From Halanaerobium congolense (GTDB taxonomy: Bacteria > Bacillota > Halanaerobiia > Halanaerobiales > Halanaerobiaceae): 33,021 nucleotides of DNA. Of this stretch, positions 5,858 to 33,021 are shown one piece after another. A program made the translations under genes and the position numbers. Location: positions 1-33,021 of the forward strand of contig NZ_SOEF01000033.1 of the NCBI RefSeq assembly GCF_004366375.1, given 5' to 3'. Within the stretch, counting starts at the first letter, position 1; each line of letters begins with the position of its first letter. The notes beneath the pieces are model-generated. The model searched no databases. It was not told the DNA's origin and was given only the letters and a program-made list of their open reading frames with translations.

Positions 5858-6823
5858 TTATTGAGGATTTGGTGAAATTTCAATTTCACCTGCTAAAAAT
5901 TGCTGCTTGTATTCCTCAATTTTAGTTAAAGTATCAGAACTTATTAGCTTTTCGGCCTGTTTTTGAGCTAAAACAAAAGCATTATCACTAATACCATATT
6001 CTTTTATCTCATTTATATAATTATCATTATAATGAGCTTCTATTATTCTTTTTACAATTTGATCAGTGTTTTTTAAAATAGCAGTTAATACATTATTAGG
6101 AGCTAAATTTATGTCCGTTCTATTTAAAGAAATCAAATTCATATTTTGTTCTATAGCCGCTTCAATAATTCCACTTGAAGCAGCTCCAGCAGCATAAAAA
6201 ATAATATCTATATTTTCTGCTGCAAGTTCTTCAGTTATATTTTTAGCTTTAGAAAAATTATTAAAACTACCTAGATATCTATTATATATTTTTACTTCAG
6301 AATTGGCTTTTTTAGCACCGGTATTAAAACCCACTTGGTACTGCTTTAGTTCATCATTTTCTTTTGCTCCAATAAAGGCTATTTTAGAATTTTGGCTTTC
6401 TAGAGCAGCAATTATCCCCGCTAAAAAAGCAGCTTCTTCTTTTTTAAAGGTTATAGATGTCACATTTTCTTCTTTAACTATACCATCAAAAATCACAAAA
6501 TTTCTTTCTGGGTACATTTGAGCTGTTTCTTTAATGGCCCGCTCCATAGTGAAACCAACACCCCAAATTAAATCAAATTTGTTTTCTGCAAAGTAATTTA
6601 TATTCTCTAGATATTCTGTCATTAAAGTTGATTCTCTAAACTCAAATAATATATTCAAATTTTGTTCAACTGCATTAATTGATGCTCTCAATTGGTCATT
6701 ATAGCTGTAATCTCCAAAACCTCCAATATCACTTACTAAAGCAACTTCCAAATATTGGGCTGAAGCTGAAAATGAAAAAAATAAGAAAATAAATATCAAA
6801 ATTATTATTATTTTAAATTTCAT
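5858..6823 (-). CDS. BMP-family periplasmic binding protein (orphan)
   Basis: The 321-residue protein resembles the BMP/Med family of ABC-transporter substrate-binding proteins, which often bind nucleosides. It shows the typical start of the mature domain (VALVSDIGGFGDYSYNDQ), LIWGVGFTMERA, FVIFDG, and ITFKKEEAAFLAG followed by KIAFIGA. Residues 1-22 form a hydrophobic signal peptide ending ASA before QYLEV, a signal-peptidase-I site; no lipobox cysteine is present. This suggests a soluble protein in a periplasm, as in a diderm Firmicute. No permease or ATPase of the matching BMP transporter type is nearby, so it may be a sensor or may serve a transporter encoded elsewhere. AAAGGTG precedes the ATG. 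It follows birA by 20 bases and is probably co-transcribed. Confidence 0.8.
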   Translation of the reverse strand: MKFKIIIILIFIFLFFSFSASAQYLEVALVSDIGGFGDYSYNDQLRASINAVEQNLNILFEFRESTLMTEYLENINYFAENKFDLIWGVGFTMERAIKETAQMYPERNFVIFDGIVKEENVTSITFKKEEAAFLAGIIAALESQNSKIAFIGAKENDELKQYQVGFNTGAKKANSEVKIYNRYLGSFNNFSKAKNITEELAAENIDIIFYAAGAASSGIIEAAIEQNMNLISLNRTDINLAPNNVLTAILKNTDQIVKRIIEAHYNDNYINEIKEYGISDNAFVLAQKQAEKLISSDTLTKIEEYKQQFLAGEIEISPNPQ

Positions 6824-7721: not shown

Positions 7722-8264
7722 TTAACAGCTTTTACCAGCTTCAATTTTTCGAATTTTTACAGCATTGTAATTTAATAATGTTTTAATGAAATATGCATAA
7801 ATAGGTATATTTATTAACTGACTTACTAATCTGGGGGGCATTAAAACAGTAAATGGAACTCCAAAAAGTAAATTAATAAAATATGGAACTAAAATTAAAG
7901 AAGAAATTAATTGCCCAATTGAAATCGAAATAAAAATTATTGGTAGGGTTCTACACCTCTTTAAAATATAAAACACCATAAAACCTGGAATAAACCCGGT
8001 TAAAAAAGAGGTAAGCGTAAAATGAGGCATATAAGCACCAAGAGGATTAATAAAATAACCAAGTAAATCCCCCAAAGCTCCAACAACACCTCCCGCGACT
8101 GGTCCAAAGGCAATACCCGCAAATATTATCGGTAATGCACCAAATCCAATTCTTACACCTTCAACACCTGCAATTGGAATTCTAATACTTAATACTCGAG
8201 TTAAAATAATAGTTAAGGCAGTTAAGAATGAAAGATACGCTATTTTTTTTGTACCTATTTTAAT
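7722..8264 (-). CDS. folT: Folate ECF transporter S component FolT, apparent AUU start
   Basis: FolT is the substrate-binding membrane subunit of an energy-coupling-factor importer for folate/THF; the shared EcfAA'T module is not in this window. The 180-residue protein has about five or six hydrophobic segments and the family-typical block AGVEGVRIGFGALP (32-45), then FGPVAGG and YFINPLGAYMPHFT. Reading from the first ATG/GTG/TTG available (TTG at 8075) would remove 63 residues, including that block. Between the in-frame stop TAA at 8270-8268 and 8075 there is no ATG, GTG or TTG. The only well-placed initiator is ATT at 8264-8262, 8 bases after GGGAGG. An AUU start is therefore inferred. Upstream lies a THF riboswitch, which independently supports the folate assignment. 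Confidence 0.88.
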   Translation of the reverse strand: MKIGTKKIAYLSFLTALTIILTRVLSIRIPIAGVEGVRIGFGALPIIFAGIAFGPVAGGVVGALGDLLGYFINPLGAYMPHFTLTSFLTGFIPGFMVFYILKRCRTLPIIFISISIGQLISSLILVPYFINLLFGVPFTVLMPPRLVSQLINIPIYAYFIKTLLNYNAVKIRKIEAGKSC

Positions 8265-8272
8265 TTTTTACA

Positions 8273-8335
8273 CCTCCCTCCCCCTTTGGTTAAGATGATA
8301 GTTTATCTGCACCAAAGAAAGAGGACACTTTGGTG
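8273..8335 (-). promoter_or_regulatory. Expression platform of the THF riboswitch (RBS sequestering)
   Basis: Two mutually exclusive helices can be drawn. CACCAAAG (8335-8328) pairs with CTTTGGTG (8317-8310), leaving the ribosome-binding site free. Alternatively CCTCTTTCTTTGGT (8324-8311) pairs over 14 positions, with G-U pairs, to ACCAAAGGGGGAGG (8290-8277), masking the purine-rich region before folT. The first helix shares CAC with the 3' strand of aptamer helix P1, so ligand-stabilised P1 should favour masking. This predicts translational repression by THF. Confidence 0.7.
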
Positions 8336-8431
8336 ACAGCGGACGCGACAAGGAGACCGCAGCTATAAAGCTTTCGTTTCAAAGCAACGTCCCATCTTTG
8401 AACACTCTACGCCTCCTGTCTACTCTATCAC
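8333..8431 (-). ncRNA. THF riboswitch aptamer
   Basis: The minus-strand RNA matches the tetrahydrofolate riboswitch layout. P1 is GUGAUAG (8431-8425) paired with CUGUCAC (8339-8333). It is followed by the conserved GAGUAG. P2 is GACAGGAG paired with CUCCUUGUC (one bulge). Then come GCGU and a P3 of UUCAAAG/CUUUGAA capping a GGGACG-containing loop, followed by ACGAA, a short hairpin and GCGGU. It stands directly before folT and after fhs, both folate genes. Recognition is by eye against known THF aptamers, not by a covariance search. Confidence 0.9.
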
Positions 8432-8480: not shown

Positions 8481-10151
8481 TTAGAACAATCCAGAAATTT
8501 TACCATCAGCATCTATATCTATATTCTCTGCAGAAGGTCTTTTAGGAAGTCCTGGCATTGTTAATACAGGACCAGTCATAACTACTAAAAACCCAGCACC
8601 TGCAGAAAGATTAATTTCATTAACAAAGATTTTAAAACCACTTGGACGTCCTTTTAAATTTGGATTATCAGAAATTGAACTTTGAGTCTTAGCCATACAA
8701 ACTGGAATATCTGCATATCCCTGTTCATTGTATTTTTCAATCTGAGCAAGTGCTGTATCGCTATAGTTAACACCATCAGCTCCATAAATTTCTTTAGCAA
8801 TTATCTCAATTTTTTCTTTGATAGGAGCCTTTTCATCATAAAGAAATTCAAATTTACTTTCTTCATTTTCTAAAACATTCACAACAGCATTTGCTAATTC
8901 TTCTCCACCTTTTCCTCCATGAGCCCAAACCTCAGATAAGGCTACATTAACACCTAAATCTTCACATTTTTGGCGAACTAGATCTAACTCTGCTTCAGTA
9001 TCATCAGGGAATCTATTAATAGCTACAACTGTTGGCACACCGAATTTATGCACATTTTCTATATGTTTTTCTAAATTTTCAATACCCTTTTCTAGAGCTT
9101 CTAAATTTTCTTCAGTTAAACCATCTAAGTCTACCCCACCATGCATTTTTAGGGCTCTTATAGTTGCCACCAACACTGTAGCATCTGGTTTCAAATCAGC
9201 AAATCTTGACTTTATATTATAAAACTTCTCAGCACCTAAATCAGCACCAAAACCTGCTTCTGTAACAGTAATATCACCCAGCTTCATTGAAAATTTAGTT
9301 GCCATAACACTATTACATCCATGAGCAATATTGGCGAATGGTCCTCCGTGAATAAAGGCAGGGGTGTTTTCTAAAGTCTGAACTAAATTAGGTTTAATAG
9401 CATCTTTTAAAAGAGCTGTCATTGCACCTTCAACCTGTAAATCGTTAGCTGTTATACTTTCACCATCATAACTATAACCAACAACAATTTTCCCCAATTT
9501 TTCTTTTAATTCCATCAAATCATTTGCCAGACAAAGTATTGCCATTATTTCTGAAGCAACAGTAATTAAGAAACCATCTTCTCTTGGCTGTCCATTTATT
9601 GTACCCCCTAAACCAACGATAGTATTTCTAAGTGCTCGATCATTCATATCTAATGCCCTTTTAAAAGTAATTTGAGTTGGATCAATATTCAATTCATTAC
9701 CCTGTTTTATATGATTGTCAATTGCAGCTGCCAACAAATTATGTGCTATACCAATAGCATGAATATCACCTGTAAAATGGAGATTTATATCTTCCATTGG
9801 AATTACCTGAGCATAACCACCACCAGCTGCACCACCTTTAATCCCCATTGTGGGGCCCAATGAAGGCTCCCTAATTGCAATCACAGCATTTTTACCAATT
9901 CGGTTTAACGCCTGTCCCAATCCAACAGTAGTTGTTGTTTTTCCCTCACCAGCTGGAGTTGGTGTAATTGCAGTAACCAAAACTAATTTGCTATCTGCCT
10001 TATTAGATAACTTTTTTAAAACATCCAATTTTACTTTAGCTTTGTATTTACCGTATAATTCTAAATCATCTTCCTCTAAACCAACTTTTTCAGCAATCTT
10101 TGTTATTTCTTTCATCTTTGCTTCCTGAGCAATTTGAATATCACTTTTCAC
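8481..10151 (-). CDS. fhs: Formate--tetrahydrofolate ligase
   Basis: Makes 10-formyl-THF from formate, THF and ATP, feeding purine and fMet-tRNA synthesis and one-carbon metabolism in anaerobes. The 556-residue length is normal. Hallmarks are the ATP-binding [20 protein letters not shown] segment near residues 63-82, [22 protein letters not shown] with the formate/folate site, FTGDIHAI, and the C-terminal [20 protein letters not shown]. The start is GTG with AGGGGG upstream. It has its own promoter and lies upstream of the riboswitch-controlled folT. Confidence 0.98.
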
Positions 10152-31555: not shown

Positions 31556-31630
31556 TGGAGCGGGAAACGAGATTTGAACTCGCGACCCTCACGTTGGCAA
31601 CGTGATGCTCTACCACTGAGCTATTCCCGC
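31556..31630 (-). tRNA. tRNA-Gly (GCC)
   Basis: The minus strand folds into a cloverleaf with acceptor GCGGGAA/TTCCCGC. The anticodon loop TTGCCAA lies in a CACG/CGTG stem, the T arm is GTTCAAATC, and the 3' CCA is encoded. It is the last tRNA of the cluster. Confidence 0.96.
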
Positions 31631-31638
31631 ATATTTAA

Positions 31639-31723
31639 TGGTGGAGGGGAAAGGATTTGAACCTTTGTAGGCATCGCCGGCAGATTTACAGTCTGCTCCC
31701 TTTAACCACTCGGGCACCCCTCC
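31639..31723 (-). tRNA. tRNA-Tyr (GTA)
   Basis: A class II tRNA of 85 bases with a long variable arm, anticodon GTA within CAGACTGTAAATCTG, acceptor GGAGGGG/CCCCTCC and encoded CCA. The 95 bases upstream, before tRNA-Ala, hold only a weak AT-rich hairpin (AGATTTT/AAAATCT). Confidence 0.96.
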
Positions 31724-31818
31724 AAATAAATGTAGGAATTAAGAAATAGGAAATAAGATTTTTTGAAAATCTAATTCTATTACTTAAAATATTTTATTTT
31801 TCTCCAACAAATAAGCTT

Positions 31819-31894
31819 TGGTGGAGATAAGGGGATTCGAACCCCTGGCCTCTACACTGCCAGTGTAGCGCTCTCCCAGCTGAGCTATATCCCC
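31819..31894 (-). tRNA. tRNA-Ala (GGC)
   Basis: The anticodon GGC is in CTACACTGGCAGTGTAG, the T arm is GGTTCGAATCC, and CCA is encoded. The acceptor GGGGATA pairs with TATCTCC, with one G-U pair. Confidence 0.95.
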
Positions 31895-31910
31895 ATGGCT
31901 GGTTAATTAA

Positions 31911-31987
31911 TGGAGCCGATGACCGGAGTTGAACCGGTGACCTCTTCCTTACCATGGAAGCGCTGCTACCAACTGAGCTACATCGGC
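31911..31987 (-). tRNA. tRNA-Thr (GGT)
   Basis: The anticodon stem CTTCC/GGAAG surrounds loop ATGGTAA (anticodon GGT). The acceptor is GCCGATG/CATCGGC and CCA is encoded. Confidence 0.95.
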
Positions 31988-31994
31988 AAAAAAA

Positions 31995-32071
31995 TGGCGG
32001 AGGAGACGGGATTTGAACCCGCGATCTCCGGCTTGACAGGCCGGCGCGTTAAACCGCTACGCTACACCTCC
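31995..32071 (-). tRNA. tRNA-Asp (GTC)
   Basis: The anticodon stem CCGGC/GCCGG has loop CTGTCAA (anticodon GTC), the D stem is GCGT/ACGC, and the discriminator is G with encoded CCA. The acceptor GGAGGTG against CTCCTCC leaves an unusual U6-U67 mismatch. Confidence 0.93.
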
Positions 32072-32144
32072 GTATTTGGATGTAGAAAGTAAGATATCAA
32101 AAAAGGAATCTCTTCCAGTCTACCAATATACTTCATTTTTAAAA

Positions 32145-32220
32145 TGGTGGGCGAAACAGGGCTCGAACCTGTGACCCCCTGCTTGTAAGGCAGGTGCTCT
32201 CCCAACTGAGCTATTCGCCC
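32145..32220 (-). tRNA. tRNA-Val (TAC)
   Basis: The anticodon stem CCTGC/GCAGG has loop CTTACAA. The acceptor is GGGCGAA/TTCGCCC and CCA is encoded. The 73 bases before the next gene, tRNA-Asp, show no feature. Confidence 0.95.
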
Positions 32221-32226
32221 GCAAAA

Positions 32227-32302
32227 TGGTACCCTCAAGGGGATTCGAACCCCTGCCGCCAGGATGAAAACCTGGTGTCCTAGACCCCTAGACGATGAGG
32301 GC
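32227..32302 (-). tRNA. tRNA-Glu (TTC)
   Basis: The anticodon stem CCAGG/CCTGG has loop TTTTCAT. The acceptor is GCCCTCA/TGAGGGT with a G1-U72 pair, and CCA is encoded. Confidence 0.95.
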
Positions 32303-32312
32303 ATAAATTAAA

Positions 32313-32405
32313 TGGCGGAGAGAGAGGGATTCGAACCCTCGCCAGAGTAAATACCCTGCTACAGGTTTAGCAAACCCGCCCCTTCAGCCACTTGGGTACC
32401 TCTCC
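32313..32405 (-). tRNA. tRNA-Ser (GCT)
   Basis: A class II tRNA of 93 bases with a long variable arm. Loop TGCTAAA gives anticodon GCT; the acceptor is GGAGAGG/CTCTCTCC-type and CCA is encoded. Confidence 0.94.
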
Positions 32406-32416
32406 ATGAATACAAA

Positions 32417-32493
32417 TGGTGGGTCTAAGAGGACTTGAACCTCTGACACTGTGGGTATGAACCACATGCTCTAGCCAACTGAGCTATAGACCC
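32417..32493 (-). tRNA. tRNA with anticodon CAT, probably elongator Met
   Basis: The anticodon stem TGTGG/CCACA has loop TTCATAC, and the acceptor is GGGTCTA/TAGACCC with encoded CCA. Loop TTCATAC fits elongator tRNA-Met better than the CTCATAA usual in tRNA-Ile(CAU), the TilS substrate, but identity is not certain. Confidence 0.9.
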
Positions 32494-32501
32494 ATGTTAT
32501 A

Positions 32502-32578
<77 letters not shown>

Positions 32579-32630
32579 ATCATTACCATGTAATTTTTGC
32601 CTGATGTATAGTAAAATATTATATTTAAAA

Positions 32631-32707
32631 TGGTTGCGGGGACCGGATTCGAACCGATGACCTCCAGGTTATGAGCCTGACGAGCTACCAGACTGCTCTA
32701 CCCCGCG
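32631..32707 (-). tRNA. Initiator tRNA-fMet (CAT)
   Basis: It has the C1-A72 mismatch of bacterial initiators (CGCGGGG against CCCCGCA), the D arm AGCAGTCTGGTAGCTCG, loop CTCATAA and encoded CCA. The anticodon stem has AGG/CCT at 29-31/39-41 instead of the canonical GGG/CCC. The 52 bases between it and tRNA-Gly(TCC) carry no confident promoter. Confidence 0.95.
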
Positions 32708-32714
32708 CTATAAA

Positions 32715-32790
32715 TGGTGAGCCATGGAGGATTCGAACCTCCGACAACCTGATTAAAAGTCAGGTGCTCTGCCAACTGAGCTAATGGCCC
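32715..32790 (-). tRNA. tRNA-Lys (TTT)
   Basis: The anticodon stem CCTGA/TCAGG has loop CTTTTAA. The acceptor is GGGCCAT/ATGGCTC with one G-U pair, and CCA is encoded. Confidence 0.95.
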
Positions 32791-32817
32791 AAAATAATGA
32801 TGATAATTTATAATTAA

Positions 32818-32892
32818 TGGCTGGGGCGGTAGGATTCGAACCTACGCGTCCTGAGACCAAAACCCAGTGCCTTACCGCTTGGCTACACCCCA
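32818..32892 (-). tRNA. tRNA-Gln (TTG)
   Basis: The anticodon stem CTGGG/CTCAG (one G-U) has loop TTTTGGT, anticodon TTG. The 5' end TGGGGTG, typical of tRNA-Gln, pairs with CGCCCCA, with a G-U-type and weak pairs, and CCA is encoded. It is the first tRNA after the 5S gene. Confidence 0.94.
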
Positions 32893-32934
32893 ACAGTTAA
32901 CAGTTAATATAATCATCAAATTTCGGAAAAAAGG

Positions 32935-33021
32935 ACCGGCAGCGACCTACTCTCCCACATCGTTACCAATGCAGTACCATAGGCGCTGGAGGACTTAACT
33001 TTTGTGTTCGAGATGGGAACA
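32935..33021 (-). rRNA. rrf: 5S ribosomal RNA, 3' part (runs off the window)
   Basis: The minus strand carries the conserved 5S segments TTCCCATCTCGAACAC, AAGTTAAG, AGCGCC, ATGGTACTGC and GGGAGAGTAGGTCGCTGCC. The 5' end lies beyond base 33021; the 3' end is approximate. A T-rich stretch follows but no hairpin precedes tRNA-Gln, so the tRNA cluster is probably transcribed with the rRNA operon. Confidence 0.95.

Follow-up and report, generated by a model that had tools for sequence, protein, structure and literature searches.

The gene folT of the halophile Halanaerobium congolense, coding for the folate-specific S component of an ECF transporter, probably starts at an AUU codon that lies at positions 8264-8262 of the minus strand of the window (the whole stretch of 33,021 nt that was analyzed). 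This reading is supported because the position and spacing of the ATT match those of the ATG of its relatives, because the sister genome G014 shares the ATT, the N-terminus is constrained and the Shine-Dalgarno duplex comprises 12 pairs, and because infC from the same genome (G000) also appears to have a non-canonical start and cvfC1 offers a precedent for AUU. The initial annotation had proposed an AUU start together with a truncation of the gene by gene callers, and this continues to be the best-supported reading, with the AUA at codon 3 persisting as an alternative. The elements considered are the following:

7722-8264, minus strand: folT, ECF transporter folate-specific S component, 180 codons counted from the putative start ATT 8264-8262
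8262-8264, minus strand: ATT codon, putative start
8256-8258, minus strand: ATA at codon 3, rival start
8268-8270, minus strand: in-frame TAA just upstream of the ATT
8073-8075, minus strand: TTG at codon 64, the first conventional start, considered false; preceded by an internal GGGAGGTG (8094-8087)
8271-8282, minus strand: Shine-Dalgarno tract GGGAGGGAGGTG, 12 contiguous predicted pairs with the 3′ end of the organism's own 16S rRNA, -20.2 kcal/mol
8335-8429, minus strand: THF-I riboswitch aptamer (Rfam RF01831, 73.7 bits; gathering score, 36)
8311-8324, minus strand: 5′ arm of the predicted sequestering helix, CCTCTTTCTTTGGT
8277-8290, minus strand: 3′ arm of the predicted sequestering helix, ACCAAAGGGGGAGG, which also covers the 5′ part of the ribosome-binding site
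8328-8334, minus strand: alternative (anti-sequestering) arm ACCAAAG, read from the sequence, which can pair with CTTTGGT at 8317-8311

A direct read of the minus strand gives, for the start region, ...ACCAAAGGGGGAGGGAGGTG TAA AAA ATT AAA ATA GGT ACA AAA AAA ATA GCG..., in which GGGAGG (8278-8273) is followed by a gap of 8 nt and then by the ATT, the same spacing reported in the initial annotation. Between the TAA at 8270-8268 and its stop codon at 7724-7722, the folT frame is uninterrupted and, as had also been claimed, it contains no ATG, GTG or TTG between that TAA and the TTG at 8075, which is codon 64 counting from the ATT. Because no ATG, GTG or TTG is found before this TTG, the mechanical ORF list gives folT as 7722-8075, with 117 aa instead of 180, and a third of FolT is absent from the list. 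The other two frames beyond the ribosome-binding site run directly into a stop (TGT AAA AAA TTA AAA TAG and GTA AAA AAT TAA), in agreement with the earlier statement that both are closed and that a single indel yields no ATG. A homopolymer indel or frameshift was consequently discarded, since there is no ATG near the ribosome-binding site in any of the three frames of the window sequence, and the alignment with G014 is free of gaps from the ribosome-binding site to the start and across the 180 codons. Translation from farther upstream is blocked by the in-frame TAA, and G011, G015, G016, and G019 have a TAA or TAG at the equivalent position; the retention of this stop codon indicates that the start is downstream of it. 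Likewise, the GTG at 8273-8271 was rejected as a start, because it is within the ribosome-binding site with the TAA directly after it, and four ATG-starting relatives show the same GTG-stop arrangement.

The product of the 180-codon frame belongs, by sequence match, to the FolT family: in a profile search it reached 122.2 bits with TIGR04518 (cut-off, 60 bits) over residues 3-165, and it also matches the Pfam ECF families PF07155/PF12822. The best structure match was PDB 4z7f, a solved folate ECF S-component, aligned to FolT residues 2-158. The presence of a FolT N-terminus ahead of the TTG, noted in the initial annotation, is thus borne out by matches that begin at residues 2 and 3, while folate binding and transport with an ECF module are putative.

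Comparison of 30 folT loci from Halanaerobiales revealed a conventional start 3-13 nt past the ribosome-binding site in 29 of them (20 ATG, 5 TTG, and 4 GTG), the single exception being H. congolense. Eight of the 12 genomes of Halanaerobium have ATG as the homologous codon (G011, G013, G015, G016, G017, G018, G019, and G020), two have TTG (G010 and G012), and only H. congolense and its sister G014 have ATT. The start region of H. kushneri (G011), with AGGTGTAAAAAATGAAAATAAGC where the window has AGGTGTAAAAAATTAAAATAGGT, differs mainly in having ATG and not ATT, and the distance from GGAGG to the start is 8 nt in H. congolense and in most of the genus. In the initial annotation, a conventional codon at this position in close relatives was held to speak against an AUU start; most relatives do have ATG here, whereas the sister genome has ATT. 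The TTG-starting homologs (loci L088 in G010 and L085 in G012) use the same codon as the ATT, indicating that the start has been weakened more than once in the genus.

The genomes of H. congolense and G014 are sisters in the phylogeny, with a support of 100/100 (100/99 with fhs alone). As for conservation of AUU at the start, the ATT is shared with G014 only, and this genome also contains an ATG two codons past the ATT (ATT ATA ATG AGT), at an unusually long distance from the ribosome-binding site. The main rival reading is based on codon 3 (8258-8256), where H. congolense has ATA and from which translation could begin as AUA; the start of G014 has probably moved to this codon, and AUA has been measured as a start in S. 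aureus, for infC, ccpN, and citZ (PMC13009471). We nevertheless consider it unlikely, because this codon lies 14 nt from GGAGG, while the other Halanaerobium genomes except G014 have spacings of 7-8 nt, and because ATA also occupies codon 3 in several relatives that plainly start at the ATG of codon 1 (G011, G013, G015, G017, and G020), so that it is not a conserved start. From the same distribution we can also deduce that the ATG of G014 is derived. The simplest history compatible with these sequences would be that the common ancestor lost the ATG at codon 1 and that G014, and not the lineage of H. congolense, then gained an ATG at codon 3; a two-step alternative, in which the codon-3 ATG was gained first and lost again in H. 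congolense, would be less parsimonious.

Codons 2-63, upstream of the TTG, show a pattern of substitution similar to that of the remainder of folT: between H. congolense and G014, dS and dN were 0.66 and 0.057 for this stretch and 0.88 and 0.061 for the rest of the gene. Changes on the H. congolense branch, polarized with four relatives, were seven synonymous and four nonsynonymous, the latter all conservative (S4G, I24V, V51I, and I60V); nonsynonymous changes were, within these few changes, below the neutral expectation (P = 0.011; 0.024 with transition weighting). These small numbers point to purifying selection on codons 2-63, also on the H. congolense lineage alone, which argues that the N-terminus is translated, as judged from selection, with no conventional start available for it. 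A decaying pseudogene, or a gene yielding only a short product from the TTG at 8075, is in turn very unlikely. Such a condition would agree with the lack of a conventional start upstream and with the internal GGGAGGTG situated 11 nt before the TTG, and a very recent loss of function could escape tests of selection; however, codons 2-63 are constrained like the rest of the gene, and solved FolT structures align to most of residues 1-63, which a short product would lose. Moreover, the TTG is absent from all 13 near relatives compared and some of them have no more than a part of GGGAGGTG (GGAGGT), so that the 117-aa call seems an artefact caused by the rule on start codons. Situated within the coding sequence, this internal motif could mislead gene callers. 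Finally, an error of sequencing, assembly or binning masking an ATG or other conventional start is highly improbable, since, although the ATT is a single G-to-T change away from the codon of most relatives and there is one assembly of H. congolense, the separate assembly of its sister has the same ATT, which makes an error unlikely under either history, and no single indel yields an ATG near the ribosome-binding site. We thus take the ATT to be real and older than the H. congolense genome, given its presence in the sister species.

The putative AUU is located 8 nt after the GGAGG of a strong Shine-Dalgarno tract complementary to the organism's own 16S rRNA, a spacing typical of the genus. A strengthening of this tract to offset the AUU found no support, because the duplex is about as strong in the ATG-starting G011 (-19.3 kcal/mol); the riboswitch and the strong ribosome-binding site are also the same in the relatives using ATG, indicating that the strong Shine-Dalgarno predates the AUU, and loss of the AUG may have been tolerated simply on account of it. 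In the leader, CCTCTTTCTTTGGT and ACCAAAGGGGGAGG can form a sequestering helix of 14-15 pairs, which is the predicted fold in all 11 of the Halanaerobium genomes folded and leaves the ATT outside. The competing ACCAAAG/CTTTGGT hairpin, predicted as the fold of G021 and G022, uses an arm in common with this helix, and both are therefore mutually exclusive. The predicted leader fits a translational THF-I switch, with putative control by the ligand. Incidentally, the upstream neighbor of folT (8481-10151, minus strand) resembles, by eye from the ORF translation, a formate-tetrahydrofolate ligase gene (fhs), another folate gene, and the riboswitch separates the two.

Under an AUU start, the ancestral AUG of an intact and translated folT would have mutated to AUU; the very strong and correctly spaced Shine-Dalgarno helix would place the 30S subunit on this codon, which the initiator fMet-tRNA would decode at reduced efficiency and with discrimination by IF3, while the upstream THF-I riboswitch would expose or sequester the Shine-Dalgarno. 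Initiation at AUU itself, its reduced rate, the sensitivity to IF3 and the logic of the riboswitch are what we infer from these elements. Extrapolating from S. aureus reporters (PMC13009471), the output of folT may be about a tenth of that with AUG. It is quite doubtful that selection maintained the AUU as a second brake, dependent on IF3 or on growth, on a folate importer controlled by a riboswitch; in that case one gene would be under the serial action of a leader that senses a metabolite and of a weak start codon. A tolerated loss of the ATG fits as well as the second regulatory layer suggested in the initial annotation, and regulation by the weak start is a conjecture.

Starts at AUU outside infC are already documented, and folT is a well-supported further example of this known rarity. 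A survey found one switch from AUG to AUU among 61,358 ancestral AUG starts, placing these changes among the rarest in bacteria (PMC5622118). The closest precedents are cvfC1 from Staphylococcus and pncA from Borrelia. In S. aureus, cvfC1 starts at AUU behind an extended Shine-Dalgarno and yields about 10% of the AUG level in poor medium; this gene and ccpN (AUA) are, like folT, Firmicute genes with a near-cognate start and an extended Shine-Dalgarno, although theirs are experimentally demonstrated and conserved across Staphylococci or to B. subtilis, whereas the AUU start of folT is recent and putative, and it is placed behind a riboswitch (PMC13009471). The pncA gene (bbe22) of Borrelia burgdorferi is likewise a metabolic gene with an AUU start and an N-terminally truncated database entry; its start is backed by genetics, biochemistry and structure, unlike that of folT, and the text consulted describes no riboswitch for it (PMC13398362). 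In Streptomyces, the GTC start of sigR is repressed by IF3 and constitutes a true regulatory brake (PMC5472188); folT resembles it in being a regulated gene on which a non-canonical start might act as a brake, but the codon is different and the regulatory role, proven in sigR, is conjectured for folT. Other Halanaerobium folT genes have the same THF-I aptamer, sequestering helix, ribosome-binding site and protein as that of H. congolense, and differ in beginning with ATG, or with TTG in G010 and G012. In a limited literature search we found no description of an AUU start combined with a riboswitch, and no paper on start codons in Halanaerobium. The change in folT is limited to one clade and affects an ordinary transporter gene; the relatives keep the ancestral ATG, and the sister seems to have acquired another ATG in its place. 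Whether loss of AUG can be buffered by a very strong Shine-Dalgarno could be tested directly in this system. Rules limited to ATG, GTG, and TTG truncate genes such as folT.

The frequency of such genes was estimated in a 433 kb sample that includes the window (around 15% of the genome), compared to 1.6 Mb of G013. From 207 non-overlapping conserved ORFs, 17 had a conserved stretch ahead of the first conventional start; on inspection, the majority were antisense ORFs or brief conserved segments directly preceding a normal start. Only three of the 207 had over 40 conserved residues in that position: infC, folT, and a 145-aa fragment, infC being the sole other intact gene like folT in this sample. 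The fragment (contig C13, L144 around 6180-6615, plus strand) has no early conventional start, shows 45% identity to part of a G013 protein and looks like a broken gene or paralogue.

The infC gene is the classical case of a non-canonical start, which is autoregulatory in E. coli. Its loci in the 12 Halanaerobium genomes (L119-L130; G000:C1 near 37358-37900, minus strand, in H. congolense) all show AGGAGGTGCATAAATATCGTTAA and no ATG, GTG or TTG near the N-terminus, and we infer that the gene starts at AUC (or AUA) after AGGAGGTG. It is thus very probable that in H. congolense near-cognate initiation (AUC/AUA) already serves at least one gene, since infC lacks a conventional start throughout these 12 genomes. 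Both infC and folT have a putative near-cognate start behind a strong Shine-Dalgarno, with a duplex of 8 pairs and -14.0 kcal/mol in infC versus 12 pairs and -20.2 kcal/mol in folT; however, the rare start of infC is genus-wide and that of folT is limited to two sister species, and a feedback with IF3 is known for infC in E. coli and none is known for folT. As a separate observation on the window, 13 tRNA genes, two of them with a CAT anticodon, are clustered beside a 5S rRNA gene at 31556-33021 (minus strand).
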